Positions 3,969 through 21,037 of a stretch of 21,037 bases of DNA are shown piece after piece. The DNA is from Paludibacter sp. (lineage in GTDB: Bacteria > Bacteroidota > Bacteroidia > Bacteroidales > Paludibacteraceae), in the NCBI GenBank assembly GCA_030655595.1, contig JAUSNQ010000029.1:1-21037 (forward strand). The letters run 5' to 3'. The stretch's first letter is position 1, and each line of letters opens with the position of its first letter. A model generated the notes under the pieces. It made no database searches. It was not told the DNA's origin and saw only the letters and a list, made by a program, of their open reading frames with translations. Both the position numbers and the translations under genes were made by a program.

Positions 3969-3974
3969 TACACC

Positions 3975-4547: not shown

Positions 4548-4562
4548 CACGAAAATACCACC

Positions 4563-5956: not shown

Positions 5957-5982
5957 AAAAATAAATAATAAACAATAAGATT

Positions 5983-6408
5983 ATGATCATCAAACAATTA
6001 TCTGTTTTCTTAGAAAACAAAACAGGCAGGCTCACTGAAATGACTAGAATTTTGACTGAAAACAACATCAACATTTCAGCTTTCAGCATTGCCGACACGG
6101 CTGATTTTGGCATTGTGAGGTGCATTGTATCCAAACCCGAAGAAGCCATCAAAGTATTGAAAGAGAATCATTTTTCAGTCAATATCACCGATGTGGTCTG
6201 CATGATTGTACCGCACGAACCTGGAGGATTATATCAGGCGTTGAAGATCCTATCCGACAACAATGTACCGGTTGAATACATGTACGCCTTTGCTTTCGAT
6301 AATGCTGCCAGCGTGGTTATCCGTTCCGAATCGAACGAGGAAGTAATTAAAGTGCTGGAGGTAAATCAGATGAAATTGCTGAAGGCAAGTGATATTTATC
6401 AGATTTAA
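5983..6408 (+). CDS. Tandem ACT-domain protein, probable amino acid sensor
   Basis: This small cytoplasmic protein of 141 aa consists of two ACT domains, about residues 3-68 and 71-137. The first begins IKQLSVFLENKTGRLTEMTRIL, with the usual ACT ligand-loop pattern (NKxGRL) followed by NNINISAFSIADTADFGIVRCIV. The second, at MIVPHEPGGLYQALKILSDNNVPVEYMYAF, repeats the pattern (PGGL). No catalytic domain is attached. Free-standing double-ACT proteins usually bind an amino acid and modulate a partner enzyme or regulator. Next to iorAB-paaK and an aminotransferase, an aromatic amino acid is the likely ligand; that is inference. It sits 121 bp after paaK across a repeat-filled gap, so it may be in the same transcript. 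Confidence 0.85.
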   Translation: MIIKQLSVFLENKTGRLTEMTRILTENNINISAFSIADTADFGIVRCIVSKPEEAIKVLKENHFSVNITDVVCMIVPHEPGGLYQALKILSDNNVPVEYMYAFAFDNAASVVIRSESNEEVIKVLEVNQMKLLKASDIYQI

Positions 6409-6427
6409 TGCAGATTTTTTGTTTTTT

Positions 6428-6457
6428 ACCATATAAGGCATATAAGAAACATATAAG
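6428..6457 (+). repeat. Intergenic repeat, copy 1 (ACCATATAAGGCA family)
   Basis: A 30-bp element starts ACCATATAAGGCATATAAG and ends AAACATATAAG. It matches the copy at 6990-7019 at 28 of 30 positions and is more distantly related to the copy at 6948-6976. It lies in the gap between the ACT gene and the thioesterase gene. Confidence 0.75.
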
Positions 6458-6499
6458 TTCTTTGTTATTTTCTGATGTGATAAGAATCTTATTTACATT

Positions 6500-6519
6500 A
6501 ATTTCTGACATGAGAAATT
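6500..6519. promoter_or_regulatory. Small inverted repeat upstream of the thioesterase gene
   Basis: AATTTCT and its complement AGAAATT flank the 6-nt centre GACATG, 21 bp before the thioesterase ATG. It could be an operator or a weak hairpin. No matching regulator is recognised in the window. Confidence 0.25.
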
Positions 6520-6540
6520 TGACATATACATACAAATAAC

Positions 6541-6942
6541 ATGAGCAGTAAGTGTTTTGAATACTTTAAAGGTGACAATTTTGCGCGGGAGAATGGGATT
6601 GAACTGGTAAGCTGCAGTCCCGGTCATGCCATTGCCAAAGTTGAAATAAACGAACGACATCTGAACGGAGCCGGCGTGGTACATGGCGGACTGCTATTTA
6701 CGTTGGCCGATTTCGCATTTGCTGCCGCCACCAATTCCTACGGGAAAGTTGCGTTATCAATCAATGCTTCCATTAATTTCTTCGAAAAAAGCAATTCAGG
6801 AACACTGATAGCAGAAGCAACGGAGATATCCCGCAGTAACAAGTTGATTCATTGCGACATCAATATCCGGCAAGAAAACGGTTCGCTACTCGCAAACTTT
6901 AAAGGAACGGCTTATGTAACAAAGACTGATATTGAATTTTGA
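6541..6942 (+). CDS. paaI: PaaI-type hotdog-fold acyl-CoA thioesterase
   Basis: This 133-aa single hotdog domain probably hydrolyses aryl-acetyl-CoA thioesters to the free acid and CoA. The active-site region NGAGVVHGGLLFTLADFAFA (residues 42-61) followed by AATNSYG closely follows the E. coli PaaI pattern, including HGG at 48-50 and the likely catalytic Asp57 (equivalent to PaaI Asp61). The length is normal for the family. PaaI enzymes act on phenylacetyl-CoA and hydroxylated relatives, which fits its place between iorAB-paaK and the aminotransferase. It would release arylacetate from the IorAB product or rescue trapped CoA. It follows the ACT gene by 132 bp, so a separate promoter is possible. 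Confidence 0.88.
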   Translation: MSSKCFEYFKGDNFARENGIELVSCSPGHAIAKVEINERHLNGAGVVHGGLLFTLADFAFAAATNSYGKVALSINASINFFEKSNSGTLIAEATEISRSNKLIHCDINIRQENGSLLANFKGTAYVTKTDIEF

Positions 6943-6947
6943 TTTAA

Positions 6948-7020
6948 ACCACATAAGGCACGTTAGAACACTTTAGTTTAGATAATATAACCATATAAGG
7001 CATTTAAGAAACATATAATA
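6948..7020 (+). repeat. Intergenic repeat, copies 2 and 3, running into the aminotransferase start
   Basis: Copy 2 (6948-6976) begins ACCACATAAGGCACGTTAG. Copy 3 (6990-7020) begins ACCATATAAGGCATTTAAG and ends at the ATG of the aminotransferase gene, whose first base it supplies. Both point the same way as copy 1 (6428-6457). They fill nearly all of the 77-bp gap between the thioesterase and aminotransferase genes. Confidence 0.75.
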
Positions 7021-8225
7021 TGACCCGATTTTCATCTTCCGTCAGCAATTTGCGTTCTTCCGAAATCCGAGATTTAATGAGCTTGGCAAACAAGCCGGGC
7101 ATGATTTTGTTTTCAGGAGGTATGCCCGATAATAATTTATTTCCGCTGAATCAAATTGATGACATTTTCAATCAGCTGACAGAAAAGGAGAAACAAATTG
7201 CCATGCAGTACGGTCCGACCAGCGGCTTGCCACAATTGCTCGATTCACTCAAAGAATTTCTGAGGAAGAAAGGATTGCCGGTTGATGAAAATAAACTCAT
7301 GATTACTACCGGTTCGTTGCAGGCCATCAACATCCTGGCAAAAGCTTTCATTGATCCGGGCGATACCATTGTGGTAGAGAATCCTTGTTTTATCGGAGCC
7401 ATCTCCGCTTTCAAATCTTATCAGGCAAATATCGTCTCAGTTCCCCTGACAGACCATGGGATTAATCTGGAAAAACTGAAAGAAACCCTGGCGAATGTAG
7501 CACAGAAACCCAAATTTGTCTATCTGACTCCAAATTTTCACAATCCTGCAGGGACATTATATACAATAGAAACTAAAAAAGCACTGATAGAAATACTTTC
7601 CGGTCAGGATATTCCGCTAATTGAAGACGATGCTTACAGCGACCTGTGTTATTACGAAGAAGACAAAAAACACCTCACCACCATCAAAGAAATGAATCCT
7701 CCGGGCATCGAAGTCTGTTATACCGGCTCCTTCTCCAAGATTCTGGGACCGGGCTTGCGTCTCGGCTGGATGCTGGTACCCGATAACATCTATCAAAAAT
7801 GCGAATTGATAAAACAATCCATTGATGCATGTTCGCCGAGTTTCACGCAAATGCTTGCGCACAAATTTGTGGAAACCGGTGCTGTTTACGATTATATTGA
7901 GGCAGTTAGAAAAGAATATAAGAACCGTGCCGAAGCCATGGTAGAAGCACTTCACAAACATTTACCAGCAAACATCACCTTCACTGCACCCCGCGGTGGT
8001 TTTTACATCTGGCTGCATTTGCCCGAACAAATGGATTCGACAGAAGTGCTGAAAAGCGCCATCGAAAAAGGCGTGGTTTTCGTCTCCGGAAAAACATTCG
8101 ACCCGCACGGTGTTATCAATAACACCATGCGTTTGTCGTTCTGTAATACATCTGTTGAAAAAATCAACGAGGGAATTCCGTTGGTGGCGGATGCAATAAA
8201 AGAAAAGATGAGAGAAAAAAAATAA
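7020..8225 (+). CDS. PLP-dependent fold-type I aminotransferase, likely aromatic amino acid
   Basis: This 401-aa cytoplasmic aminotransferase belongs to the class I/II group related to KAT-II, LysN and the MocR catalytic domain. Visible sites are GGMPDNNLFP at 33-42, the phosphate-binding TGSLQA at about 97-102, NPAG with Asn175, DDAY with Asp204 and Tyr206, the Schiff-base lysine in GSFSK (Lys240), RLGW with Arg247 and a C-terminal MRLSF arginine that should bind the substrate carboxylate. No DNA-binding domain is attached. Being last in the iorAB-paaK-ACT-paaI series, it probably interconverts Phe/Tyr/Trp and the aryl pyruvates used by IorAB. Members of this group also act on 2-aminoadipate, branched-chain amino acids or kynurenine, so substrate is inferred from context. 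It converges on the carboxyltransferase gene with 37 bp between them; no clear terminator is seen there. Confidence 0.88.
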   Translation: MTRFSSSVSNLRSSEIRDLMSLANKPGMILFSGGMPDNNLFPLNQIDDIFNQLTEKEKQIAMQYGPTSGLPQLLDSLKEFLRKKGLPVDENKLMITTGSLQAINILAKAFIDPGDTIVVENPCFIGAISAFKSYQANIVSVPLTDHGINLEKLKETLANVAQKPKFVYLTPNFHNPAGTLYTIETKKALIEILSGQDIPLIEDDAYSDLCYYEEDKKHLTTIKEMNPPGIEVCYTGSFSKILGPGLRLGWMLVPDNIYQKCELIKQSIDACSPSFTQMLAHKFVETGAVYDYIEAVRKEYKNRAEAMVEALHKHLPANITFTAPRGGFYIWLHLPEQMDSTEVLKSAIEKGVVFVSGKTFDPHGVINNTMRLSFCNTSVEKINEGIPLVADAIKEKMREKK

Positions 8226-8262
8226 ACTGAGAAATAGATTAAATGATGGGTGACCCAGCCTC

Positions 8263-9837
8263 TTAGTATTTCAGGCGACCTGAAAGTACCCACGGACTCA
8301 CCTGACGAATACTATTGATGGCGAATTTCGAGCCATTTTCGCTCTCCATGGCAGCTATCGCTGCTGATATTACAGCAACCATTTCATCATCGTTCACTTC
8401 AGCAGCATTATCCTCTGTTTCAGCAATCTCAGCAACAGGAACTTCAGGCTGAAAAACAGCTTCTTCAGCTACCGGCCCGGTAACATCCGACTGCATCTTC
8501 TGCTGGCGTTCCCGAAAGAACTTCTCGGCCACCTGAGGCAGAAGGGCATAAGTAAGCACATCTTCTTCCTGAATCATCAGATCTTTGATTGCTTCGCGGT
8601 TTTTTTCAAGTTCCGGTTCTATCAGGTCGGCCGGGCGACAGGTAATTGCCACTTCATCGCCGAGAATCCTTTTCCTGAACTCTTCTGAAATGGGTGAAGG
8701 AGTAGCACCGTATTCACCCTTCACAATACCTTTGGATTCTTTGGGCACCATTTTGTAGCGTTCACCCATCAGAACGTTGAAGACAGCCTGTGTGCCAACA
8801 ATCTGACTTGAAGGAGTTACAAGGGGAGGAAAACCAAAATCTTCACGTACACGCGGAATCTCCTTCAATACCTCTTCGTACTTATCCAGCGCATTTGCCT
8901 GCTTAAGTTGCGAAACCAGGTTAGAAAGCATTCCGCCCGGAACTTGATAGATAAGTGCGTTCACATCAACTCCCATCATTTTGGTATCGAGCAAGCCCGA
9001 CTCAATCCACTTGTCGCGCAACGGTCGGAAATACTCCGCTATCTCACTCAATTTTACCAGATCAAGTCCTGTATCGTATGGAGTTCCCTGCAATGATGCC
9101 ACCAAAGGTTCGGTAGCAGGCTGTGAAGTTCCGAGGGCTAAAGGAGATATGGCACAATCCACCACATCTACTCCTGCTTCAATGGCTTTCAGATAGGTCA
9201 TGGAAGCTACCCCGCTGGTGTAATGAGTATGCAGCTGTATCGGAATTTTCACTGTAGATTTAATTGCACTGATGAGCTCATAAGCATCATAAGGCCTTAG
9301 CAAACCCGCCATATCCTTGATGCAAATGGAATGCGCACCCATATCCTCCAACCTTTTAGCATCACGTGCAAAAAGCTCAAGACTGTGTACCGGACTGGTA
9401 GTGTATGAGATACAAGCCTGAGCGTGACCACCTTCTTTTATACAGGCACGAATAGAAGTTTCGATATTTCGCGGATCATTCAATGCATCGAAAATTCTAA
9501 TGATATCCATACCGTTGGCTATGGCTTTCTGTACAAAATACTCAACAACATCATCAGCATAGTGTTTGTATCCCAACAGGTTTTGACCACGCAACAACAT
9601 TTGCAGGGGCGTTTTCTTTGCCTTTTCCTTTATCTTGCGCAGACGATCCCAGGGATCTTCATTCAGAAAACGAATACAGGCATCAAAAGTAGCTCCACCC
9701 CATGCTTCTAAGGAGTGATAACCAATATTATCTAATCGTTCTACTATCGGCAACATCTCTTCGGTACGCATCCGGGTAGCTATCAGCGACTGATGTGCAT
9801 CGCGCAACACCGTCTCTGTAATTTTTACTCTTTTCAT
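8263..9837 (-). CDS. Biotin-dependent carboxyltransferase subunit (OadA/PycB/5S type) with OadG-like tail
   Basis: This transfers carboxyl groups between biotin and a keto acid or CoA ester. An HMGL-like TIM barrel spans about residues 1-270 with the metal/catalytic set Asp13 (ETVLRDAHQS), Lys174 (CIKD, the carbamylated lysine), His203 and His205 (LHTHYTSG). Spacing equals that reported for Vibrio OadA (D17, K178, H207, H209). A conserved PYC/OADA domain follows to about 445. There is no biotin domain; the carrier is the separate gene just upstream. After an acidic Ala/Glu/Val linker (452-483), residues 485-524 (EMVAVISAAIAAM ... SIRQVSPWVLSGRLKY) resemble the cytoplasmic tail of OadG/MmdD small subunits, but with no membrane helix. 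No oadB, biotin carboxylase or 12S gene is in the window, so oxaloacetate decarboxylase, pyruvate carboxylase B and transcarboxylase 5S all remain possible. Confidence 0.9.
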   Translation of the reverse strand: MKRVKITETVLRDAHQSLIATRMRTEEMLPIVERLDNIGYHSLEAWGGATFDACIRFLNEDPWDRLRKIKEKAKKTPLQMLLRGQNLLGYKHYADDVVEYFVQKAIANGMDIIRIFDALNDPRNIETSIRACIKEGGHAQACISYTTSPVHSLELFARDAKRLEDMGAHSICIKDMAGLLRPYDAYELISAIKSTVKIPIQLHTHYTSGVASMTYLKAIEAGVDVVDCAISPLALGTSQPATEPLVASLQGTPYDTGLDLVKLSEIAEYFRPLRDKWIESGLLDTKMMGVDVNALIYQVPGGMLSNLVSQLKQANALDKYEEVLKEIPRVREDFGFPPLVTPSSQIVGTQAVFNVLMGERYKMVPKESKGIVKGEYGATPSPISEEFRKRILGDEVAITCRPADLIEPELEKNREAIKDLMIQEEDVLTYALLPQVAEKFFRERQQKMQSDVTGPVAEEAVFQPEVPVAEIAETEDNAAEVNDDEMVAVISAAIAAMESENGSKFAINSIRQVSPWVLSGRLKY

Positions 9838-9851
9838 TAAACAGGAAATAA

Positions 9852-10223
9852 TTACGAAAATACAACCAATAATTCGCCGGCAGCTATACTCTTGCCTACT
9901 GAAGTACGAATTTCAGAAATAACTCCATCAACAGGTGAAGTAAGCTCATTTTCCATTTTCATTGCTTCAAAAACAAGTAACTTCTGACCTTTTTTGATGA
10001 TGTCGCCCGGGTTTGCAAATAAACTGATTACGGTTCCGGGCATGGGAGCAGCAACTTTACCAGCACCGGCGGGAACTTTTTTTGGCGAAGCTACAACAGG
10101 CTGACTAATTCCCATTTTTGGTGCCTGACGATGTGGATAGACCGGAGCAGTTGCAGTGGGTTTCACTTCGAGCACTTCAACTTCAAATTGATTCTGATTG
10201 ACTGTAATTAAATACTTTTTCAT
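9852..10223 (-). CDS. Biotin carboxyl carrier protein (1.3S/BCCP type)
   Basis: This 123-aa carrier subunit swings carboxybiotin between active sites. An N-terminal strand segment (1-22) is followed by a flexible Pro/Ala/Val-rich linker (about 23-56). The biotinyl domain (57-123) contains PMPGTV and the biotinylation motif EAMKMEN with Lys89, with the matching downstream hairpin GVISEIRTSVG. Length and modified-lysine number equal those of the Propionibacterium transcarboxylase 1.3S subunit, although the linker sequences differ. The carboxyltransferase gene starts 14 nt after its stop, so the two form an operon driven by the promoter at 10257-10288. It probably docks with that carboxyltransferase. 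Confidence 0.93.
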   Translation of the reverse strand: MKKYLITVNQNQFEVEVLEVKPTATAPVYPHRQAPKMGISQPVVASPKKVPAGAGKVAAPMPGTVISLFANPGDIIKKGQKLLVFEAMKMENELTSPVDGVISEIRTSVGKSIAAGELLVVFS

Positions 10224-10752: not shown

Positions 10753-11334
10753 ATGCCCGATTTCCCATCAATAGAAAAGCAATATATTCTGGAATTAAAC
10801 CGTGGATCGTACAAGGCCTTCGATGCTCTGTACTCCTTATATTCAAGAAGATTATATGGGTTTGCACTCAAAATGACCAAATCACATGCTGATGCAAAAG
10901 AGATTGTGCAGGACACATTTGTCAGGCTTTGGCTCAATCGCGAAAATGTGTTACCTGAAGATACTTTTCAAGCCTACCTGTTTACCATCGCTAAAAATGC
11001 CATTCTGAACAAAATGCGCACGCTTATCAACACACCTGTCTTTGTAGATTACATGGAATATATGAACGAGCAGCGCCTATCGGAAGAAAACATTACGGAG
11101 TCGATAGAAATGGATGAGTTCAGAAAAAAACTTGAACATGCAAAAAAATCTCTCTCTGAAACACAATTAAATGTTTTCGAACTGAGCAAAGAAATGGGGT
11201 TCAGCCATACGGAAGTTGCCCAACAACTCAACCTAGGCGAACAAACCGTCAGAAATCAACTTTCTTTAGCACTTAAAACCCTCAGGGAAAAGCTTGCAGA
11301 TAACGCAGGTCTTTTCGCAGTATTCTTCTTGTAA
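10753..11334 (+). CDS. ECF-family RNA polymerase sigma factor (FecI-like)
   Basis: This 193-aa sigma-70 family factor directs RNA polymerase to a dedicated promoter set, probably the downstream uptake operon. Region 2 covers about residues 9-90, with FDALYSLYSRRLYGFALKMT and DAKEIVQDTFVRLWLNRE as typical core-binding and -10 recognition helices. Region 4 covers about 128-180, ending in the helix-turn-helix GFSHTEVAQQLNLGEQTVRNQLSLALKTLR. The C-terminal hydrophobic end AGLFAVFFL is common in Bacteroidetes FecI proteins beside susC genes. A FecR gene follows after 144 bp, then a susC with an STN domain, so activity is probably controlled by substrate sensing across the envelope. Confidence 0.93.
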   Translation: MPDFPSIEKQYILELNRGSYKAFDALYSLYSRRLYGFALKMTKSHADAKEIVQDTFVRLWLNRENVLPEDTFQAYLFTIAKNAILNKMRTLINTPVFVDYMEYMNEQRLSEENITESIEMDEFRKKLEHAKKSLSETQLNVFELSKEMGFSHTEVAQQLNLGEQTVRNQLSLALKTLREKLADNAGLFAVFFL

Positions 11335-11344
11335 TTTAATAAAA

Positions 11345-11386
11345 GCTATTTGTTATTCGCTATTAACCATTAGCTATTCGTTTATC
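11345..11386. repeat. Three 14-bp degenerate repeats between sigma and fecR genes
   Basis: GCTATT recurs at 11345, 11359 and 11373, exactly 14 bp apart. The units are GCTATTTGTTATTC, GCTATTAACCATTA and GCTATTCGTTTATC. The 14-bp period is the same as in the unrelated-looking repeat at 5861-5902. Confidence 0.65.
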
Positions 11387-11404
11387 GTTCCCCGCTTTTC
11401 GCTC

Positions 11405-11416
11405 AAAACATGTTTT
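11405..11416. promoter_or_regulatory. Perfect 12-bp palindrome upstream of fecR
   Basis: AAAACATGTTTT is its own complement and lies 62 bp before the fecR start. It could be an operator or part of an ECF-dependent promoter region. A palindrome this short in AT-rich DNA can arise by chance, and no TAnnTTTG element is seen between it and the gene. Confidence 0.25.
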
Positions 11417-11478
11417 ACAACATACAAACTTTTCGGTACAAATTTACAACCCTTGTGTATAACTTAATATAGCAACAT

Positions 11479-12492
11479 ATGAAAACTGAGCACATGACAG
11501 AATTATTGCAAAAATATGCAGAAAACCGCCTTTCGACTGAAGAAATTTCAGCATTAAAGAAAGGTATCAATACATCTTCCGATGAAGAATTGGACACATA
11601 TCTTCACGACTTATGGAAAAGCGAATCCGGCAAAAAGGTTGATCCGAACATTTTGTTTGAGATTAAACAGCATATCGACAAAGCAAATGCCAGTCGAAAA
11701 TGGTCAAAAACCATGTTATTTAGAAAAGCTTTTCGTGTTGCCGCCATCATTGCTGTACCCCTCTTTGCAACATTCATGTATTTTATGGCTGAAAGAATCC
11801 CGGCTCCTGCTGCGAGCGACATGATTGTATCAGTAGGTGCGGGCGAACGTGTTAGCATTGTTTTACCTGACGGAACGAAAGTAAACCTGAATTCAGAAAC
11901 AACGCTGAGTTACAATGTCAACGATTTCAACAGGAAGTTCCGGGAAATATCAATGGGTGGCGAAGCATATTTTGAAGTAGCTAAAAATGAAAAGGCACCA
12001 TTTATTATCAAAACCAATTCGATGGATGTGAAAGTACTGGGTACGGTGTTCAATTTACAAGCAAGGGATGAAGAGTTTACAACTGAAATCAACCTGATTG
12101 AAGGAAAAGTGGCACTGACAGCAGGTAACACCCGACAAGAGGTACTGTTGTTTGCGAACCAGCGTGCAGTGCTTGACAAACGCACCGGAAGCATCAAGGT
12201 GTTTGAGAACGACCCGCAAACAGCTGCTCCATGGATGAGAGGCGAACTGGTATTTCATGCAACGCCTATCCGCAATGTACTCAGGGCAATTGAACGTAGC
12301 TACGGAGTGAGTATTAATATTGCTCAGAATAAACTGCCGGATAATGATTTATTTACCGGAACATTCTCTATAAATAACCTGCATGAGACGCTGGAGATAC
12401 TTAGGATGCATTACCGCTTCGATTACGAAATAAAGGGTAAAAGTGTTGCCATTGAGCATTTCAGAATAAACAAGAATAGAAATATGAATTAA
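11479..12492 (+). CDS. FecR-family anti-sigma factor
   Basis: This 337-aa inner-membrane protein is predicted to hold the upstream ECF sigma factor inactive until SusC signals substrate. A cytoplasmic N-terminal part (about 1-85) should bind sigma. One membrane helix lies at about 86-104 (FRVAAIIAVPLFATFMYFM). The periplasmic FecR domain (about 117-215) contains GERVSIVLPDGTKVNLNSET and GGEAYFEVAKNEKAPFIIKT. A C-terminal DUF4974-type domain (about 255-320) with FHATPIRNVLRAIERSYGVSI should contact the STN domain of SusC. The start is the first Met; Met6 is an alternative. The susC ATG follows 67 bp after the stop. Confidence 0.92.
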   Translation: MKTEHMTELLQKYAENRLSTEEISALKKGINTSSDEELDTYLHDLWKSESGKKVDPNILFEIKQHIDKANASRKWSKTMLFRKAFRVAAIIAVPLFATFMYFMAERIPAPAASDMIVSVGAGERVSIVLPDGTKVNLNSETTLSYNVNDFNRKFREISMGGEAYFEVAKNEKAPFIIKTNSMDVKVLGTVFNLQARDEEFTTEINLIEGKVALTAGNTRQEVLLFANQRAVLDKRTGSIKVFENDPQTAAPWMRGELVFHATPIRNVLRAIERSYGVSINIAQNKLPDNDLFTGTFSINNLHETLEILRMHYRFDYEIKGKSVAIEHFRINKNRNMN

Positions 12493-12559
12493 GGAGTTGG
12501 ATACAACTTATCAGACAAATAGATCATTCAAACAAATAAAAATTAAATCGGAATACAGT

Positions 12560-15500
12560 ATGAGTTATACTAAAAAAGGATTATTGATTTTACTAGCATT
12601 CCTGCTTTATTGTTCGACAGGAATAATTAATGCCCAGGGTAAAACAATATCCATTGATGTAAAGAACGCCAACCTTGAACAAGTTTTCAGTCAGATAGAA
12701 AGACAGTCGGCATACAAATTTTCCTATCGCAACAGCATCATGGACAAGTCGCAGGACATCAATCTGAAACTGGACCTTGTGCCTGTTGAAGATGTATTGA
12801 AGGCGATTCTTCCGGCAAAAGGGTTACAATATAACATTGCATCTGAAAACTCCATTGTCATCACCCGAATAAGTGACGGCATAAACATTCAAACTCCCCC
12901 ACAAAAAAGGATTTCCGGTAACATTACCGATGAAAAAGGTGTAGCAATCATTGGGGCTAACATCCTGATAAAAGGCACATCCGTCGGAACCATTACCGAT
13001 TTTGACGGGAAATTCGAGATGGAAGCCCCTGTAAACGGAACGCTCTTAGTTAGTTACATTGGTTACCTGAACGAGTCGGTCAACATAGGAGATAAATCTT
13101 TTATAAGTTTAAAATTAAGAGAAGACACGAAAGTATTGGATGAAGTGGTGGTAGTTGGATATGGCACCCAGAAAAAAGTAAACCTGACCGGGTCTGTTTC
13201 TATGATTACCGCTGATGATCTGAACTCGAGACCGGTATCAAGTGTATCGGGAGGATTACAAGGTCTGTTGTCAGGGGTTACAGTGACAAATACATCCGGA
13301 CAGCCGGGAGCTAACAGCACCAGTATCCGCATCCGTGGATTAGGGACAATAGGCAATGCCAACCCTTTGGTATTGGTCGATGGTGTTGAAGGGGACATGA
13401 ACACGCTGAATCCGGAAGACATCCAAAGCGTATCCGTATTGAAAGATGCTGCTTCGGCTTCTATCTACGGTGCCCGTGCGGCCAACGGGGTTATTTTGGT
13501 AACCACGAAAAGATTAAACACAAAAGATCAAGCGCCAACGATATCATTTAATGCTTATTACGGAACACAAACGCCTACCCGTCTTCCTCAAATGGCAGAT
13601 GCTATCGAGTTTATGACTCTCGACAACGAAGCAAGAAATAATGTTGGTACCGGGATTGCATGGTTACAGTCGCACTTTGATCATGTAAAAAACGGAACAG
13701 CTCCGAATTATTTTGGTGATACCGACTGGGTATCTTCCGTCTTAAACAGCAACGCACCCCAACAAAATTATGCCGTTAACGTGAACGGTAATTTGGGCAA
13801 ATCCGGATATCTCCTATCATACAGGTATTTCGATCAGGCAGGTCTGACAGTAGGCAATTCAACCGGTGAACAACGTCACAACCTGCGTTTTAAAGTTGAC
13901 TCTCGCCTCCTCAATATCGTGGAAATTAGCACCAATATCGGATATACCATGCGGAACGTTGTTGCTCCGGTAGGCTCTCTGACAAGCGGAGGAGGTGCCA
14001 TATACACCGCAATGCGCATCGCTCCCAATGTTCCTGTTCGTTTCACCGATGGTTCGTGGGCGTATGGTGGAGGAAACACCAATCCTGTGGCCATTCTAAA
14101 TGATGGAGGAAACTCCATCCTCGATGCTGATGAAATCTCTTTGATGAATGTTGCTAAAATTGATCTGCTTAAAGGTTGGGATCTTACAGCAACTTATAGC
14201 ATCGTCAATAGAAATTCATTGTCGCAAATTCTCCGAAAATCTATTCCTTTCACCAATCCTGAAACACCTGAAACGCCTGTTTACATTTTCAACCAACCTA
14301 ATAGCTTGGCTAATACCGACATCCGTCAGAGACAACAAACGCTTATCATTCAGTCGAATTTTGAATTCGACATCGATAGGCACAAAATTTCCGGTGTTGG
14401 CGGTTTTTCTCAGGAATGGTCGGTTTTGCGTCAGTTTCAGGCATCACGTATCAACCTGATTACCGAACAGGATCCCACGCTTAATCTTGGATCAAAAGAA
14501 GGGATGAGCAACACGGGTGGCGCATCACAATGGGCTATCCGATCAGGGTTCGGTCGTTTAAATTATAACTATAACGACAGATACCTACTTGAATTAAACC
14601 TGCGATACGACCTGTCCTCGCGATTCCACAAATCGAATCGGGGCGGACTTTTCCCCTCATTCTCGGGAGCCTGGCGTCTGAGTGAAGAATCTTACATGCA
14701 ATTCTCAAGAGAAATCTTCGACAACATCAAAGTGCGAGCTTCCTGGGGTATGCTGGGTAATCAATATGTGGGATCAACCGATTACCCATATTTATCAGTA
14801 CTCAACGAAGTAAGCGGATTATCGGCCATCGGCACTCTGGGGACAATGGGTTATACCCAGACAACCCTTGCTAACCCTTTACTTACCTGGGAGAGAATTG
14901 ATATGCTTGATATTGGTTTAGATCTTACTTTACTGCGAAACAGACTTAATATTACTTTCGACTGGTACGACAAAAACACCAATGGAATTTTATTGCGACT
15001 CAACTACCCGAGTCAGATTGGTGCCAGTCCTTCGGAACAAAACGTTGGCTCTGTAAACAATCGTGGATGGGAAGTGGATGTCGCATGGCGCGATAAAATT
15101 GGAAAGTTATCATACGGCTTTGCTGTCAACCTGTCGGATGTAAAAAACAAAATTACTGACCTCGGTGAAACCTCTCCTGATCTGGGTTCATACATGATTC
15201 GTCGCGTTGGAGACCCCATCGATGCATTCTATGGTTATATCACTGAAGGTTTGATGACACCTGATAACTTTGGGTTTTATGATGAATACGAGAACAAATA
15301 CTACAGTCCTAATGTACCGGTTGTAATTGGTCCGGATTACCAGCCCGGTGACATTAAATATAGAGACATCAGCGGACCACAGGGAATTCCAGATGGTAGA
15401 ATTTCTCCGGAATACGACAGGGTTGTACTGGGTAGCTCAATGCCCCGCTATACTTATAGCTTCAGAACCGATTTGGCCTATCAGAATATTGATTTGTCAT

Positions 15501-15931
15501 TTGCACTTCAAGGTGTAGGGAAAGCCAACGGCTATCTGACCGGGTCAGCACGACATGCACTCCAGGATATGGCTGCATACCCGCAAAAAATTCACCTTGA
15601 AAGATACAATGTGGTATCCAATCCGAATCCGGATGCTTCTTATCCGCGTTTGACATACAATACCGATTTCAATCAGTCAACTTTTTCAACTTTCTGGCTT
15701 GAAGATGCATCTTACTTACGATTGAAAAATATCCAAATAGGTTATACCTTGCCAAAAGAAATTTCAACAAAAGTAAGTATTGAAAGGTGCAGGTTTTATG
15801 TCTCAGGCGATAACCTGTTAACATTGAGTAATTTCTTCTATGCATATGATCCGGAAACTCCGATTTCGAGTGGAGGGTATTATCCGCAAATCAAAACCTT
15901 TGTGGTCGGTGTAAATCTGACATTCAAATAA
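12560..15931 (+). CDS. susC: SusC/RagA-family TonB-dependent outer-membrane transporter with STN domain
   Basis: This is an outer-membrane import channel of 1123 aa. I start it at the ATG at 12560 because the following MSYTKKGLLILLAFLLYC is a proper signal peptide with cleavage near INAQ-G; an upstream in-frame TTG (12497) only adds an unlikely 21-residue leader. Order: STN secretin/TonB short N-terminal domain (about 28-105), carboxypeptidase-D-like regulatory domain (about 115-195), TonB box-like DEVVVVGYG, then plug with SVSGGLQGLLSGVTV, RIRGLG, PLVLVDGVEG and DAASASIYGARAANGVILVTTKR. A 22-strand-type barrel follows to the aromatic C-terminal end VGVNLTFK. The STN domain marks it as a signalling transporter that talks to FecR. 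The susD gene follows directly (stop and a possible susD ATG overlap as TAATG). Confidence 0.95.
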   Translation: MSYTKKGLLILLAFLLYCSTGIINAQGKTISIDVKNANLEQVFSQIERQSAYKFSYRNSIMDKSQDINLKLDLVPVEDVLKAILPAKGLQYNIASENSIVITRISDGINIQTPPQKRISGNITDEKGVAIIGANILIKGTSVGTITDFDGKFEMEAPVNGTLLVSYIGYLNESVNIGDKSFISLKLREDTKVLDEVVVVGYGTQKKVNLTGSVSMITADDLNSRPVSSVSGGLQGLLSGVTVTNTSGQPGANSTSIRIRGLGTIGNANPLVLVDGVEGDMNTLNPEDIQSVSVLKDAASASIYGARAANGVILVTTKRLNTKDQAPTISFNAYYGTQTPTRLPQMADAIEFMTLDNEARNNVGTGIAWLQSHFDHVKNGTAPNYFGDTDWVSSVLNSNAPQQNYAVNVNGNLGKSGYLLSYRYFDQAGLTVGNSTGEQRHNLRFKVDSRLLNIVEISTNIGYTMRNVVAPVGSLTSGGGAIYTAMRIAPNVPVRFTDGSWAYGGGNTNPVAILNDGGNSILDADEISLMNVAKIDLLKGWDLTATYSIVNRNSLSQILRKSIPFTNPETPETPVYIFNQPNSLANTDIRQRQQTLIIQSNFEFDIDRHKISGVGGFSQEWSVLRQFQASRINLITEQDPTLNLGSKEGMSNTGGASQWAIRSGFGRLNYNYNDRYLLELNLRYDLSSRFHKSNRGGLFPSFSGAWRLSEESYMQFSREIFDNIKVRASWGMLGNQYVGSTDYPYLSVLNEVSGLSAIGTLGTMGYTQTTLANPLLTWERIDMLDIGLDLTLLRNRLNITFDWYDKNTNGILLRLNYPSQIGASPSEQNVGSVNNRGWEVDVAWRDKIGKLSYGFAVNLSDVKNKITDLGETSPDLGSYMIRRVGDPIDAFYGYITEGLMTPDNFGFYDEYENKYYSPNVPVVIGPDYQPGDIKYRDISGPQGIPDGRISPEYDRVVLGSSMPRYTYSFRTDLAYQNIDLSFALQGVGKANGYLTGSARHALQDMAAYPQKIHLERYNVVSNPNPDASYPRLTYNTDFNQSTFSTFWLEDASYLRLKNIQIGYTLPKEISTKVSIERCRFYVSGDNLLTLSNFFYAYDPETPISSGGYYPQIKTFVVGVNLTFK

Positions 15932-15963
15932 TGAGAAGTTGTAAATCTGTAAAAAAAACAAGA

Positions 15964-17649
15964 ATGAAAAAATATATTGTCATATTAATTTCGGTGGTCA
16001 CATTCCTTTCATGCAACGACGATTTTCTTGAAAGACCACCTTTAGATACACTGACCAATGAAAATTTTTGGCAAAGTGAAGCACATCTTGTAAGTGCAGC
16101 CAATGCACTTTACACCGCAATGAATGGAAAAGACGTGTTAAACATGTTCGAATCGATGGGAGAAACAGCTCCCTGGGCAATAACTACTGCCTATCGTACG
16201 ATAGGGGGAGGGAATTATGCAACCGACATCACACAGATCAATAACGTCTGGGTAAGAGCTTATTACAACATCGGAAGGTGTAATTATTTTCTGAACAACT
16301 ACAAACGCGCTGTTACAGTTCCAGTAAATATCAGGGAGCGCTATGCGGCAGAGGCGTACTTTTTCAGGGCTTACGATTACTGGTTACTGACGTCTCTTTT
16401 CGGAAATGTCCCATACATTACCAAAGAACTGAATGTGTATTCTCCTGATGTTTATCGTGGAAGGGATAATCGCGAAGCAGTTATCGACAGCATTACTACT
16501 GAATTAGAAAGCACGTATCAAAATCTTCCCGCATTTATCGCTCCGGCTTCAGCACAGTTTGGTCGCATATCACAAGGTGCTGCCCTGACCCTGTTGTCAC
16601 GAATTTACCTGTATAATGAACAATGGGATAAAGCTGCCAATGCAGCCAAAAGAGCCATGGGACTTGGTTACCAATTATATTCAACCGGAAATCCTACAAA
16701 CGATTACCGCAACCTATTTAATTTTACAGGCAGAGCATCACGCATAGGCACAAACAAAGAAACTATCCTGGCTTATGTGTATAATTTTGATTTGGGTCAG
16801 GATGCGCGGTCATCACATAATTTATCGCGCGAACTTTGGGTTCCTAATGACTACTCTCGTTTTGCTCCTACCAACAAAATGATTGAGAAATGGCTTACCG
16901 CTGATGGTAGTATCTGGAATCCTGCGACTGTAAACACTTACGAGGAAGTTTTTGAAAACAGAGATCCCCGCATGAAGCAGTCGGTTTTAGCACCAAACAC
17001 TACATGGGAAGGTCGTAAAGACGGTAACCCAAACAACACAAACACATCCATATTTACTTATCCAAAATTCTCGAATGATAAAGACGGATGTATGACTTAC
17101 TCAGGATATTACCTTTACAAATATGTAGAGCCTTCTAAAGTTGGTCAGGTTAGTCAGGACGACAACGACATCATCTTCATCCGCTATGCCGAAGTATTAC
17201 TGAATTATGTTGAAGCATGCGAACGTGCCGGCTCAATTACACAGGCCACGCTCGACAGCACCATCAATTTGCTGAGAGACCGCGTGGGCATGGTACATCT
17301 TACCCTCTCGAATATTCCTGCAGGCTCAGACATCCGCACAGAAATCAAAAGAGAAAGAACGGTTGAACTCTTCTTTGAAGGCCACCGCTACCTCGATCTG
17401 ATTCGTTGGAAAGAAGCTGAAATACTCGGAGAAGATTTATTGGGAGTGAACCGTCGCTGGCTTGATCCTTCGAAACTTGCAGCTGGAGTATTGAATACGC
17501 TCAAATGGAAAAATGTAAGCGGAGAACAGTATTTGATCGTTGAATCGGGACGGACTTTTAACCCTGCAAAACATTATTTGTTGTCGTTGCCATTCACGCA
17601 AATGCAGCGCAATCCGAATTTAAGGCCAAATAATCCTGGATGGGATTGA
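15964..17649 (+). CDS. susD: SusD/RagB-family substrate-binding outer-membrane lipoprotein
   Basis: This 561-aa surface lipoprotein caps SusC and captures the ligand. I chose the ATG at 15964, which gives MKKYIVILISVVTFLSC with the lipobox Cys17 followed by NDDF, resembling Bacteroidetes surface-export signals. A start at 15931, overlapping the susC stop, would add 11 residues and cannot be excluded. Family marks are FLERPPLDTLTNENFW near the mature N-terminus, tetratricopeptide-like helices around AEAYFFRAYDYWLLTSLFGNVP and ALTLLSRIYLY, and the C-terminal TVELFFEGHRYLDLIRWKEAE. The length is typical. The binding pocket gives no readable clue to the ligand. The first hydrolase gene follows after 73 bp. 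Confidence 0.95.
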   Translation: MKKYIVILISVVTFLSCNDDFLERPPLDTLTNENFWQSEAHLVSAANALYTAMNGKDVLNMFESMGETAPWAITTAYRTIGGGNYATDITQINNVWVRAYYNIGRCNYFLNNYKRAVTVPVNIRERYAAEAYFFRAYDYWLLTSLFGNVPYITKELNVYSPDVYRGRDNREAVIDSITTELESTYQNLPAFIAPASAQFGRISQGAALTLLSRIYLYNEQWDKAANAAKRAMGLGYQLYSTGNPTNDYRNLFNFTGRASRIGTNKETILAYVYNFDLGQDARSSHNLSRELWVPNDYSRFAPTNKMIEKWLTADGSIWNPATVNTYEEVFENRDPRMKQSVLAPNTTWEGRKDGNPNNTNTSIFTYPKFSNDKDGCMTYSGYYLYKYVEPSKVGQVSQDDNDIIFIRYAEVLLNYVEACERAGSITQATLDSTINLLRDRVGMVHLTLSNIPAGSDIRTEIKRERTVELFFEGHRYLDLIRWKEAEILGEDLLGVNRRWLDPSKLAAGVLNTLKWKNVSGEQYLIVESGRTFNPAKHYLLSLPFTQMQRNPNLRPNNPGWD

Positions 17650-17722
17650 AACAGGTTGCTAACTAGGGAAAACTGTTGCTGATGCGTTTAATTCTTCAAT
17701 GTCAAAAACTAAATATCAATAA

Positions 17723-18511
17723 ATGGCTTATATAACAGCTCAATATAAAATAGTATTTTTTACTGCTTTGCTAATCATATTGGCTGGCTTTACTTCCAAT
17801 GCTCAATCATTATCAATCAGGGTGATTTCGATGAACATGAAAGAAGGAGGAAAACCAGCTAATTACAATGCTGAAGCATACAGCACATTCATCCGACAAT
17901 ACAATCCGGATGTGGTGGTATTTCAGGAGATGGATAATTTCACTACCCGCAACGGGAACATAGACCTGCTTACGGAAATGGCTGTGCAATTGGGCATGTT
18001 TCCTTACTACGGAAAGGCATTTACTTATGCTTCCGGTGATTTTGGGAATGCTATTTTATCGAAATATCCTTTTTATCATGCTCGTACCATCAGTGCCAAA
18101 CCAACGGGTGCAAATGAAATGAGATCATGTGCGTGGATTGACATCATGTTACCGAATAAGCGCAAAGTCAGGGTGGGCGTTACCCACCTCGATGTTGCAA
18201 ATGATGATCAGGTGCGTATCAGCATGTTAGCCACCATCAATGCCGGCATGTTAACCGACAACGAACTGCCTACCCTGCTGATAGGTGATTTCAATGCATC
18301 GCCGAATTCCGACACCATGAACTATGCAAGGTTCAGGTGGCAGGACATCGGAGTTGGAACCGGGAATACTATCCCAAGTACAAATCCCACAGCACGAATC
18401 GACTATGTGATGGGATATCCGAAAAGCTGGATTAAAAAAAGTTATCAAACCGTATGTGATCCGGGACTTTCGGACCATTGTTTTATCGTTGCCGATGTTG
18501 AACATCCTTAA
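17723..18511 (+). CDS. Secreted endonuclease/exonuclease/phosphatase (EEP)-fold hydrolase 1
   Basis: This 262-aa protein belongs to the DNase I / sphingomyelinase / inositol phosphatase superfamily and should cleave a phosphoester outside the cytoplasm. A signal peptide covers about residues 1-28 (hydrophobic 10-22, cleavage near SNAQ-S). All core motifs are present: Asn38, Gln68-Glu69 (FQEMD), GNAILSKYP at 109-116, His155 (VTHLD), Asp189/Asn191 in GDFN, Asp227 in RIDYVMGYPK and SDH at 250-252. The length is close to the bare EEP domain, so no extra binding module is attached. Hydrolase 2 (19320-20099) is a paralogue sharing the layout and the IDY-x-x-GYPK stretch. Substrate is unknown; it ends 9 bp before the next gene, so it belongs to the susCD operon. 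Confidence 0.88.
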   Translation: MAYITAQYKIVFFTALLIILAGFTSNAQSLSIRVISMNMKEGGKPANYNAEAYSTFIRQYNPDVVVFQEMDNFTTRNGNIDLLTEMAVQLGMFPYYGKAFTYASGDFGNAILSKYPFYHARTISAKPTGANEMRSCAWIDIMLPNKRKVRVGVTHLDVANDDQVRISMLATINAGMLTDNELPTLLIGDFNASPNSDTMNYARFRWQDIGVGTGNTIPSTNPTARIDYVMGYPKSWIKKSYQTVCDPGLSDHCFIVADVEHP

Positions 18512-18520
18512 ATTGCAAAA

Positions 18521-19306
18521 ATGAAAATGTATAAACTAAACATATTATTAATTCTAATCTTCACTGCAAGTATCAGCTTCTCGTGCAAAGATCCGGTTCT
18601 GGTGGATGAAGGTTACGAAGCTCCTGCACCTCCGGCAGAAGTTATCGATCGAAACCTGATCACCGTTGAGTTTTACTCGCGGTTGAATGAGGAATCCTTA
18701 TTTCAAAATAACGAGGTTGATGTTGTGGTCAACCGCATTTCCAGCATCACCGCTCCGTTAGCATACCTGTTCGATAGGTCGGATGCTTTTGTGGGAGAGA
18801 CTTCTCCCGTTGTTGAAATCGGTTGGCGTACAAGAACCAAATCATTTTTTGTACAAAACACCCTGAGTGAAAGTTTCTTTCAGGGAACCGGCATGATCGT
18901 CAGACCCATCATCAATGTGTTCGAAGGTGCAGCTATTCCCGACACCTTATTTGTCGGCGGATGCACCCTCATGGCTCCGCTTGGCAATCCGGTTGTATTG
19001 ACTCTGATGACCTGTCGGCTGGATGACAAGAAACAATTTCCTGCTCTTGTAAACATCCTCGGCGATGGTTTAAACACGAACAAGGTTGTGATTGGAACAG
19101 TAAAACAGGGACTTGCCGATGAAATGAAAAACTACCTGAAATACAACATGAAATATTTCAGATTATCATTCCACGCAACTGATTTAGCAGGAAAAACACA
19201 TCAGCTTTTCATACTGACACCCACCAACTTTGTCGGACGTGAAGTTATATCCACTGCCGTCGGAACTTTGCCCATGTATCAGTGTAAAATTGAATATATA
19301 CAATAA
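18521..19306 (+). CDS. Lipoprotein of unknown family between two EEP hydrolases
   Basis: I do not recognise this 261-aa protein. It has a lipoprotein signal peptide with lipobox SFSC (Cys22) followed by KDP and an acidic/proline segment (VLVDEGYEAPAPPAEV), which looks like a surface-exposed tether. The remainder is rich in beta-type segments with no visible catalytic motif: VEFYSRLNEESLF, VVEIGWRTRTKSFFV, GTGMIVRPIINVFEG and MKYFRLSFHATDLAG. It starts 9 bp after hydrolase 1 and ends 13 bp before hydrolase 2. By position it could be a surface ligand-binding protein or a partner of the hydrolases. That is inference from order only; a second short start (Met3) is possible. Confidence 0.85.
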   Translation: MKMYKLNILLILIFTASISFSCKDPVLVDEGYEAPAPPAEVIDRNLITVEFYSRLNEESLFQNNEVDVVVNRISSITAPLAYLFDRSDAFVGETSPVVEIGWRTRTKSFFVQNTLSESFFQGTGMIVRPIINVFEGAAIPDTLFVGGCTLMAPLGNPVVLTLMTCRLDDKKQFPALVNILGDGLNTNKVVIGTVKQGLADEMKNYLKYNMKYFRLSFHATDLAGKTHQLFILTPTNFVGREVISTAVGTLPMYQCKIEYIQ

Positions 19307-19319
19307 AATTATAAACAAT

Positions 19320-20099
19320 ATGAAATTCAGAGGATTATTCTTATCGTTTGCGCTTCTTATCAGCGCTGCCCTTTTCGCACAAACCACCGAACTGAACGTG
19401 ATGGCATTTAATCTGCGTTTCGGAGAACATGCATCATTAGAGCAAATGGCTGAATACATCAGCAGTCAGAAACCCGATTTGGTTGCTCTTCAGGAATGTG
19501 ACTGGAAAACAAATCGTGAACGTGCGCCACAACAAGCAGGAAAAGCTTTTGTCAACGAGCTGGCCTATCATACCGCTATGTTTGGCATATATGGCAAAGC
19601 CATTGATTACAGAGGCGGATATTATGGTGTTGGAATCCTTTCAAAATATCCGATCATCAAAAGTGAAAGGCTGCTTTTACCCAACCCTAACCCCAGAAAT
19701 GAACAACGAGTGATGCTCATTGCAGAAATTGAACTGGCTGATAAATCCATCATCACTTTTATTTCAACTCATCTGGAGGTATCATCTGAAATAGCAAGAA
19801 AAGCACAGATTGCATTCATCAATGAGAAAATAAAAGAAATTAAAACACCGATTATACTGGCTGGTGACCTGAATGCCATACCAACATCCGAAGAAATAAA
19901 AACAGGTTTCCAGAACTGGTTCAATGCCACCGATACCGTTTACACTTATTCGACCATCGAACCCAAAATAAAAATAGATTATATCTACGGTTATCCGAAA
20001 GAGCTTTTCAGTTTAGTCAGAACGGCCGTTGATACCGATTGTAAACTATCGGATCATTTTCCGGTATCATCGGTCATACGCATGAAAAAAAATAAATAA
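19320..20099 (+). CDS. Secreted endonuclease/exonuclease/phosphatase (EEP)-fold hydrolase 2
   Basis: This 259-aa paralogue of hydrolase 1 probably cleaves a related phosphoester. The start at 19320 is chosen because MKFRGLFLSFALLISAALFAQ is a complete signal peptide and lies 13 bp after the preceding stop; an earlier in-frame Met at 19230 lies inside the upstream gene. Motifs present are Asn31, Gln58-Glu59 (LQECD), GVGILSKYP at 103-111, His151 (STHLE), Asp183/Asn185 in GDLN, Asp220 in KIDYIYGYPK and SDH at 244-246. It differs from hydrolase 1 in having NRERAPQQAG after the Glu motif, resembling EEP enzymes of the sphingomyelinase-like branch in general layout. It ends 38 bp before the next lipoprotein gene. 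Confidence 0.88.
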   Translation: MKFRGLFLSFALLISAALFAQTTELNVMAFNLRFGEHASLEQMAEYISSQKPDLVALQECDWKTNRERAPQQAGKAFVNELAYHTAMFGIYGKAIDYRGGYYGVGILSKYPIIKSERLLLPNPNPRNEQRVMLIAEIELADKSIITFISTHLEVSSEIARKAQIAFINEKIKEIKTPIILAGDLNAIPTSEEIKTGFQNWFNATDTVYTYSTIEPKIKIDYIYGYPKELFSLVRTAVDTDCKLSDHFPVSSVIRMKKNK

Positions 20100-20137
20100 T
20101 CATCATACAATCAATTACTAACAAAAAAAATATCATT

Positions 20138-21037
20138 ATGAAAAAAATTAATTTTTTATTTCTGACAATGTTAGTCGCCATGACAACCCTGTTTGTTGCA
20201 TGCGACAAAGACGAAGTCAAAGAAGCTAATGTTCAATTTGCATTGAATCAGACAAGTTTCGAGACACTTCATTTTGCTGATGCTGTGCAGATTACAGGAA
20301 CAGTGACAGCCGACAAGGGCATAACCGGCATATTTTTCACCGGAGTTAAAAAGGAAAGTGAAATTTATGTTGCCAAAGGAGATGCTCAGGAATACTTAGC
20401 CAACGGTGCAACTACTGTGAATTTAAACATGGAGTATTTTGTTGACAGCAAAGAAATCACCCACATAGAAGTAAGAGTTGTGGTAGGCGATGCGTCAAAA
20501 AAAGCGTATATCAGCGTGGCATCTGTTACAGGCGAAGCCAAAGGTTCGGCTTTCATCGGACAAGTAATCCTTCGTGCCGACACCATGGTGTGGAATGCCG
20601 AAAATATGCCGGATGTTTATACTACTCCAAACACAGGCGCTTTGGCCAACACACCTTCATTTTTCTCTATTCATGGAGCTGAAATAAACGGACAAAAGAA
20701 ACATGCCTTATCAGCTGATGATTTGCGTTCGGTTCAGGGAGCAAATGGCAGTTTCTGTTTCCTCAATGTGCTGCAGAATACAGCCAACAAAGCTTATATT
20801 GGAAGTCAGCGTGGTTATATGTTCTCCAATCTCATACCTTCCCAGTTAGGCGGCGGAACAACCGGTCGTCAGTGTGACCTCTATGAAATCGGAGGCAATG
20901 CCATTCGTCAGGCAAATGTTGATACTACTCAATTCCGCATCATCGCAGGATCGTGGATTGGCGGAGACTGGAACGAAGCCCGTTACAAATTCGTTGATTC
21001 TCTCTTTTTGGTTGTAAACAACGAAGCAACGACTGAA
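20138..21037 (+). CDS. Lipoprotein of unknown family, N-terminal 300 residues (cut by window edge)
   Basis: An open frame begins at ATG 20138 and runs to the right edge, 300 codons without a stop. The signal peptide ends in the lipobox LFVAC (Cys22), followed by DKDEVKEA, an acidic stretch like Bacteroidetes lipoprotein surface-export signals. Residues about 32-135 alternate hydrophobic and polar in a way that suggests an Ig-like beta domain, beginning VQFALNQTSFETLHFADAVQI and including GIFFTGVKKE and HIEVRVVVGDASKKAYISVAS. Residues 140-300 (ILRADTMVWNAENMP ... GSWIGGDWNEARYKF) form a second domain that I do not recognise. Position after susCD suggests a surface ligand-binding protein (SusE/SusF or SGBP role); this is inferred from context, not from a motif. 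Confidence 0.8.
   Translation, partial: MKKINFLFLTMLVAMTTLFVACDKDEVKEANVQFALNQTSFETLHFADAVQITGTVTADKGITGIFFTGVKKESEIYVAKGDAQEYLANGATTVNLNMEYFVDSKEITHIEVRVVVGDASKKAYISVASVTGEAKGSAFIGQVILRADTMVWNAENMPDVYTTPNTGALANTPSFFSIHGAEINGQKKHALSADDLRSVQGANGSFCFLNVLQNTANKAYIGSQRGYMFSNLIPSQLGGGTTGRQCDLYEIGGNAIRQANVDTTQFRIIAGSWIGGDWNEARYKFVDSLFLVVNNEATTE

Follow-up and report, generated by a model that had tools for sequence, protein, structure and literature searches.

Which nutrient is taken up by a SusC/SusD locus whose recognisable enzymes are two secreted phosphoesterases? We asked this of positions 10753-21037 of a 21,037-nucleotide stretch of Paludibacter sp. DNA (contig JAUSNQ010000029.1, assembly GCA_030655595.1), which as a whole we call the window. 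The original prediction, made from the sequence alone, had described here an extracytoplasmic function (ECF) sigma-regulated SusC/SusD pair, two secreted enzymes of the endonuclease/exonuclease/phosphatase (EEP) fold and two unclassified lipoproteins, and the open reading frames (ORFs) together with Pfam and NCBIfam searches confirmed this description. By its regulator, its SusC and SusD proteins (SusCD) and its lipoproteins, the locus is a Sus-like polysaccharide utilisation locus (PUL). With moderate confidence, we propose that eight genes of the window form the start of a SusCD utilisation locus directed at a polymer of alpha-N-acetylglucosamine (alpha-GlcNAc) and D-glycerate with phosphodiester links, most likely the clostridial lipoteichoic acid PS-III.

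We scanned 84,980 species genomes with an alignment of EEP1, the first of the two EEP enzymes, and obtained 316 stretches fitting the pattern, 202 of which encode a relative. The best 80 were retained, and loci L001-L039 were analysed; L040-L080, in which the best segment was at most 32% identical, were excluded. The first lipoprotein, LipA, follows EEP1 in 30 of the 30 loci L001-L030. The second phosphoesterase, EEP2, comes next in 28 of the 29 loci that reach its position (it is missing from L028, and the contig of L005 stops earlier), and the second lipoprotein, LipB, comes next in 27 of 28 (L007 is the exception, and L005 and L030 stop earlier). SusC is visible in 28 and SusD in 29 of these 30 loci, the remaining ones beginning too late. 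The order SusCD-EEP-lipoprotein-EEP, which the original prediction had suggested looking for across Bacteroidales, recurs in relatives as far as their contigs reach. Because LipA, EEP2 and LipB recur at these frequencies, we conclude that the two-EEP, two-lipoprotein arrangement is not a product of chance. Gene content, order, conservation and family membership were all observed directly. At the place where LipB is expected, L007 has a new sigma-FecR-SusC set (7197-8523; 60%, 50% and 46% to the window's); either the set was copied in tandem or the assembly was joined there. L033 (1-6541), L034 (1829-7389) and L035 (4918-11569) show another SusC-SusD-EEP arrangement, a more distant one, with an EEP 29-31% identical to EEP1, a SusC at 29-30%, no match to LipA, LipB or the GH89 family described below and, in L033 and L035, an extra ORF of about 280 amino acids after the EEP.

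The two EEP proteins of the window score 75.7 and 77.4 bits against PF03372 (gathering cut-off 24.5). They are paralogues with 33% identity, and seven residues that we take to be catalytic (N38, E69, H155, D189, N191, D251 and H252 in EEP1 numbering) are retained in 66-68 of the 68 EEP1 and EEP2 sequences from the window and L001-L039. Judged by eye, the N-termini of the EEP and GH89 proteins are of the signal or lipoprotein type, and LipA, LipB and SusD have lipobox cysteines. LipA and LipB matched no Pfam family and no PDB sequence at E<=1, and comparison of the two with each other gave no sign of kinship. Among about 5.8 billion proteins, LipA had 34 matches at E<=0.001, the window copy included, and EEP1 had 127; the source names, given for a few of these matches, were Paludibacter, Paludibacteraceae, Bacteroidales, Tidjanibacter and one Pigmentiphaga. 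LipB has 52 invariant columns across the 21 full-length copies aligned. When at most four candidates were scored per genome, LipB was found in 8 of 395 Bacteroidota genomes, full-length in the centre genome alone and as weak N-terminal matches in the other seven; in the family of L006 it was found in 10 of 120 genomes, with eight weak matches and two full-length copies in locus-bearing genomes.

The EEP fold, and the similarity of EEP2 to exodeoxyribonuclease III models of NCBIfam, which is below cut-off, would fit the uptake of extracellular nucleic acid with the EEPs acting as secreted DNases or RNases. The available text of a PUL survey (PMC6499787) reports that 576 of 14,713 SusCD loci, without carbohydrate-active enzymes (CAZymes), sulfatases or peptidases, carry phosphodiesterases of other Pfam families, and it suggests nucleic acid for such CAZyme-free loci with phosphodiesterases. 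Bacteroidota with extracellular nucleases are also common in marine sediment, according to a source whose available text leaves SusC and SusD unmentioned (PMC8289736). However, the subset of locus ORFs that was scanned contained no nuclease beyond the EEP fold and no nucleotidase, nucleosidase or lipase, and nucleic acid would leave the GH89 and glycerate genes unexplained. With no supporting gene seen, we rate nucleic acid uptake as very improbable.

What lies beyond LipB in relatives points elsewhere. The gene right behind LipB encodes either a GH89 protein or a GntP-type permease in all 27 relatives that have LipB, and GH89 alpha-N-acetylglucosaminidase genes occur beyond LipB in 22 of the 27. 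No CAZyme family was recognised by Pfam and NCBIfam scans of the window ORFs; the statement that the EEPs are the only recognisable enzymes thus stands for the window and fails for the locus. Nineteen loci carry two copies, GH89a and GH89b; L014 and L023 have one each, and the contig of L016 stops inside the first. In L029, a single open frame of 1430 amino acids (13911-18203) holds GH89a and GH89b, as if fused. The GH89 copies scanned have NAGLU domains far above cut-off. Both L006 proteins match known alpha-N-acetylglucosaminidase structures, namely 4xwh (9.5e-123 and 5.8e-171) and 2vc9. GH89a of L006, the one copy in which this was seen, aligns at the motifs FNEM and APEGI, whose glutamates are presumably catalytic. 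Between the sigma gene and the permease, GH89 was the sole glycoside hydrolase family recognised in relatives.

A second conserved function predicted beyond LipB is the use of glycerate. Glycerate kinase domains (MOFRL/DUF4147 or PF02595) score above cut-off in relatives, and a glycerate kinase is present in 19 of the 21 loci whose sequence extends far enough. The kinase is of the MOFRL type, a match to 2b8n ("glycerate kinase, putative" in the PDB), in L002, L003, L006 and L008, and of the PF02595 type (TIGR00045, 469 bits) in fifteen loci. In L002 and L003, whose contigs are long enough, a GntP permease follows LipB and the kinase follows the permease. We also observed directly that the two kinases, which are unrelated to each other, are encoded in corresponding parts of the locus. 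The GntP-type permeases, also two in kind, have in common just a match of 68 amino acids. With unrelated kinases and barely similar permeases, one role seems to have found two separate solutions. Across 23 of the 31 genomes of L001-L031, the MOFRL kinase was found in 4, the PF02595 kinase in 16, both in none and neither in 3 (those of L001, L004 and L009, in which the contig end cuts the locus before the kinase position). As a background, 31 of 118 Bacteroidota genomes have PF02595, and the locus-bearing genome of L014 is among these 31. As a control, we inspected the surroundings of 20 of the 32 PF02595 matches in these 118 genomes, mostly the best-scoring and one of them in the genome of L014 (sequence L130). 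The EEP, GH89 and LipB of the locus were found near none of the 20, by a test that finds fairly close relatives only; a GntP permease was found near one and some SusC similarity near five. We conclude that glycerate kinase is not a usual neighbour of SusCD. In L130 (8428-13272), the stand-alone glycerate kinase is followed, as judged by eye, by an indolepyruvate oxidoreductase and a phenylacetate-CoA ligase, gene kinds that the window, too, has to the left of its locus (2373-5861).

These genes bear on the original idea of a phosphate-containing nutrient, in which nucleic acid, lipid headgroups, inositol phosphates and phosphorylated glycans had been listed. A glycoside hydrolase lies just beyond the window's end position in the same operon in 22 of 27 relatives, a finding that the original prediction had itself named as weakening that idea. 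Since GH89 in these 22, or a GntP permease with glycerate kinase in L002 and L003, belongs to the locus, the genes argue for the catabolism of a polymer that contains an organic acid and not for phosphorus supply alone. The phosphodiester and the phosphorylated glycan survive from the list; a system primarily for phosphorus or lipid nutrients is not supported. In the window, SusC and SusD are adjacent, as in Sus-like PULs, and stand together with phosphoesterases, as in a phosphate utilisation system (PUS) as defined by Lidbury et al., which obtains phosphorus from organic compounds when phosphate is limiting. According to the available text of PMC8115612, phosphodiesterases or phosphomonoesterases accompany SusCD-like proteins in PUS loci, and these loci are inducible by low phosphate in Flavobacterium. 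That same text, however, describes Fjoh_4172 of PUSI as a phospholipase C-like phosphodiesterase, and the only EEP protein that it names, Fjoh_0074, is an orphan. The window locus, moreover, has its own ECF sigma/FecR/STN-SusC set, and its relatives carry carbon-catabolic genes for glycerate and amino sugar. On account of these catabolic genes and this sigma/anti-sigma set, we consider phosphate scavenging, a reading close to the original idea, improbable. The broader suggestion is supported, namely a SusCD system that has a dedicated sigma/anti-sigma pair and whose core enzymes are phosphoesterases.

A polymer that combines these parts is known. The lipoteichoic acid PS-III of Clostridioides difficile has the repeat [->6)-aGlcNAc-(1->3)-[->P-6]-aGlcNAc-(1->2)-D-GroA], where GroA is glyceric acid (available text of PMC5270738 and PMC6972965). 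The accessible part of PMC10642750 describes two alpha-1,3-linked GlcNAc residues, 6-P-6 phosphodiester bridges and, on C1, glyceric acid; at one of the GlcNAc positions, about 15% is glucosamine (GlcN). The two EEPs would address the phosphodiester, two GH89 enzymes and an enzyme resembling heparan-alpha-glucosaminide N-acetyltransferase (HGSNAT) the alpha-GlcNAc and GlcN, and the permease and kinase the glycerate; each of these parts has a candidate enzyme, and a 6-phosphate would suit NagB, and we therefore propose PS-III. Among the titles listed and the text available from open-licence literature, no PUL assigned to lipoteichoic acid was found. More tentatively than for the window itself, we suggest that Bacteroidales may possess a dedicated SusCD operon through which they obtain carbon and nitrogen from the lipoteichoic acid of clostridia living nearby, a phosphodiester polymer of GlcNAc-GlcNAc-glycerate. 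Such a PUL for a Gram-positive surface polymer, with its glycerate-import branch, may be shared by Paludibacter-type genomes, gut Bacteroidales and Bacteroides xylanisolvens.

We infer each substrate and reaction step from sequence, and the genes after LipB in the window's own genome are predicted from relatives. Polymer fragments would be bound at the surface by SusD, LipA and LipB and imported by SusC, the STN domain of which would signal to FecR and the ECF sigma factor and so bring about self-induction. In the periplasm, EEP1 and EEP2 would cleave the 6-P-6 phosphodiester, the remaining phosphomonoester, or both. In most relatives, two GH89 enzymes could then take off the two alpha-GlcNAc residues, after re-acetylation of GlcN by the HGSNAT-like enzyme in some. 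The freed D-glycerate would enter through the GntP-type permease and, once phosphorylated by glycerate kinase, pass into glycolysis, and GlcN-6-phosphate would pass to NagB.

Accessory genes were found as well. DUF5009-like genes adjoin GH89 in L014, L021 and L023, and the L014 protein, the one copy compared, matches HGSNAT at 2.7e-15. The L006 operon continues with a "choice-of-anchor Q" protein (its type 9 sorting signal is below cut-off), a protein containing a third EEP (EEP3), NagB (TIGR00502, 409 bits) and a NagB/PIG-L protein, the last of which also lies near the L013 locus on the other strand. EEP3 is fused to the "choice-of-anchor Q" region in the L006 operon (L150, 3642-5846), and the two are separate genes with a Gfo/Idh gene between them in L003. 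In Paludibacter sp. 47-17 (L152, 1203-16545), ORFs resembling a type I restriction-modification island by eye stand directly after EEP3. The Gfo/Idh protein lies downstream in both L002 and L003, and UDP-GlcNAc 3-dehydrogenase is the NCBIfam model that it resembles most, below cut-off; we tried GH109 for it, and none of the 60 PDB matches listed, out of 71, carries that name. B. xylanisolvens XB1A (L031) has a rearranged cluster in which SusC is 39% and SusD 32-33% identical, and its order is SusC, SusD, EEP2, GH89, PF02595 kinase, GntP, DUF5009-like, GH89, sigma/FecR and EEP1. After EEP1 come an ORF of 259 amino acids without a LipA match and an ORF that is weakly LipB-like (51 bits). An inositol monophosphatase-family gene (PF00459; 13310-14113) adjoins this cluster, possibly as a phosphomonoesterase of the pathway and possibly unrelated to it.

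Several observations weigh against PS-III as the substrate. The loci nearest to that of the window, L001-L004 and L010, with EEP1 identities of 78-80% (the highest among the best 80 of 202), have the GntP permease directly after LipB and no GH89 in the operon sequence examined. A genome-wide search for GH89 in four genomes of this group (G001-G004, completeness not given) found none in G001, G002 and G004 and one copy elsewhere in G003. The alpha-GlcNAc step is therefore unsupported for the window, for which the phosphodiester and glycerate parts alone are to be expected. The kinase gene of L019 is broken and that of L021 is split, no such kinase was found in the locus sequence examined for L014 and L023 (their genomes have a PF02595 match elsewhere, partial in that of L023), and the nearest NCBIfam models of the permeases are gluconate symporters, below cut-off. 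No enzyme for the D-Ala esters or the glucosyl-lipid anchor was recognised in the locus. Finally, eight gut-type loci have, within them or next to them, a sulfatase for which plain PS-III offers no role (L011, L012, L015, L019, L022, L024, L025 and, on the opposite strand, L013), and the available text of PMC5270738, PMC6972965 and PMC10642750 does not mention sulfate for C. difficile lipoteichoic acid.

The sulfatase could instead belong to a heparan-type glycan whose alpha-GlcNAc is sulfated or N-sulfated, with the EEPs handling a phosphorylated part. Its closest PDB chain is 7oz8 ("Choline-sulfatase"). Together, the genes for GH89, the HGSNAT-like enzyme and the sulfatase mirror the way heparan is degraded in the lysosome, and the sulfatases have an SGSH_C domain in L012 and L019 and the motif STPAR in L011, L012, L015 and L019, the four of the eight that were checked. 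Yet heparan breakdown has no use for two EEPs or for a glycerate kinase with a GntP permease, and the scanned ORFs of L003, L006, L013 and L014 included no known polysaccharide lyase or uronidase family, heparin lyase and unsaturated uronidase among them, a negative that stands beside the unclassified "choice-of-anchor Q" protein of Paludibacter loci. A sulfatase match is also absent from the sequence examined of the Paludibacter-type loci L002, L003, L004, L006 and L008, including the extensions L150 and L151, and none was found up to the sequence ends of L014, L018, L020, L021, L023 and L026-L029, several of which stop at or soon after the permease. We consider a heparan-type substrate improbable, if slightly less so than phosphate scavenging.

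The sulfatase in these eight loci is also a hint of something other than plain PS-III as the substrate in the gut. The gene evidence fixes a parts list (phosphodiester, alpha-GlcNAc and glycerate) and not a source organism, and the same enzyme logic would apply to another phosphodiester glycan of alpha-N-acetylhexosamine and glyceric acid, such as a bacterial capsule, an S-layer glycan or an exopolysaccharide. Glyceric acid phosphate is known from a Paenibacillus S-layer glycan. Against such a source, PS-III alone combined all three parts in the literature examined, as far as its available text goes. The accessible part of PMC5270738 also reports that antibodies to PS-III cross-react with other Clostridia; the polymer therefore need not come from C. 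difficile. We regard a different glycan of this kind as unlikely, and retain PS-III as the proposed substrate.

Table 1. Genes of the SusCD-EEP locus in the window
Gene product	Position	Strand	Evidence or remark
ECF sigma factor (Bacteroidetes family)	10753..11334	+	TIGR02985 134 bits vs cut-off 126; Sigma70_r2/r4_2
FecR-type anti-sigma factor	11479..12492	+	PF04773 (FecR) 1.5e-20; PF16344 (FecR_C) 5.4e-15
SusC-like TonB-dependent transporter, N-terminal STN signalling domain	12497..15931	+	TIGR04056 887 bits; Plug, STN
SusD-like surface lipoprotein	15931..17649	+	PF07980 (SusD_RagB) 5.8e-46; PF14322 9.1e-21
EEP1, secreted EEP-fold phosphoesterase, likely periplasmic (signal peptide by eye)	17723..18511	+	PF03372 5.6e-21
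LipA, lipoprotein; candidate surface binding protein or enzyme	18521..19306	+	family found behind EEP1
EEP2, second secreted EEP-fold phosphoesterase	19320..20099	+	PF03372 1.7e-21
LipB, lipoprotein, open at window end; candidate surface glycan-binding protein or enzyme	20138..21037	+	

The genes of the locus in the window are listed in Table 1. The regulator set identified by Pfam and NCBIfam consists of the ECF sigma/FecR pair and the STN domain on SusC. For EEP2, the ATG at 19320 was taken as the start and not the TTG at 19230. LipB is about 420 amino acids long in relatives, so that 300 amino acids of it lie inside the window. Left of the locus and outside it (2373-10223), there are ORFs that by eye resemble indolepyruvate oxidoreductase A/B, phenylacetate-CoA ligase, an ACT-domain protein, a thioesterase and an aminotransferase on the + strand and a decarboxylase/biotin-carrier pair on the - strand.

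If PS-III is the substrate, Bacteroidales would obtain nutrients from a polymer that clostridia, alive or dead, bear on their surface and that is of the kind found in C. difficile. The duplicated GH89 of PULs and the paired EEPs would gain a substrate, and enzymes able to cleave an antigen of interest for vaccines would become available from the locus. A non-sugar moiety would be readable from a locus through its kinase, here through two unrelated glycerate kinases in the same role and the same locus. The prediction is specific and can be tested with synthetic PS-III oligomers, which exist (available text of PMC6972965).

How does the locus compare with known systems? In lysosomal exo-degradation of heparan sulfate, HGSNAT acts and then NAGLU. 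The relatives resemble this route where an HGSNAT-like gene lies beside GH89 (L014, L021, L023 and, more distantly, L031), and differ from it in having EEPs and glycerate kinase and no recognised lyase or uronidase family. The Flavobacterium PUS (PUSI-PUSIV; six PusCD forms) likewise join a SusCD-like pair to phosphodiesterases or phosphomonoesterases, but in the available text of PMC8115612 they are induced by low phosphate and carry other enzymes, phospholipase C-like and PhoA-like ones, whereas the locus studied here comes with a sigma/anti-sigma pair of its own and, in relatives, with genes of carbon catabolism. According to the accessible part of PMC6499787, GH89 is one of the families found duplicated where a PUL contains just one CAZyme family, in agreement with the two GH89 genes of relatives; unlike for the present locus, that text mentions no substrate, EEP or glycerate genes for those PULs. 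With PS-III as described in the available sources, and leaving aside its D-Ala esters and lipid anchor, three building features match three enzyme groups of the locus. Sus-like PULs of Bacteroidota in general share with it the ECF sigma/FecR pair, STN-SusC, SusD, further lipoproteins and secreted hydrolases. Unlike the usual Sus-like PUL, this locus has two EEP phosphoesterases as its conserved core and, in its relatives, builds in an inner-membrane permease and a kinase for a C3 acid.

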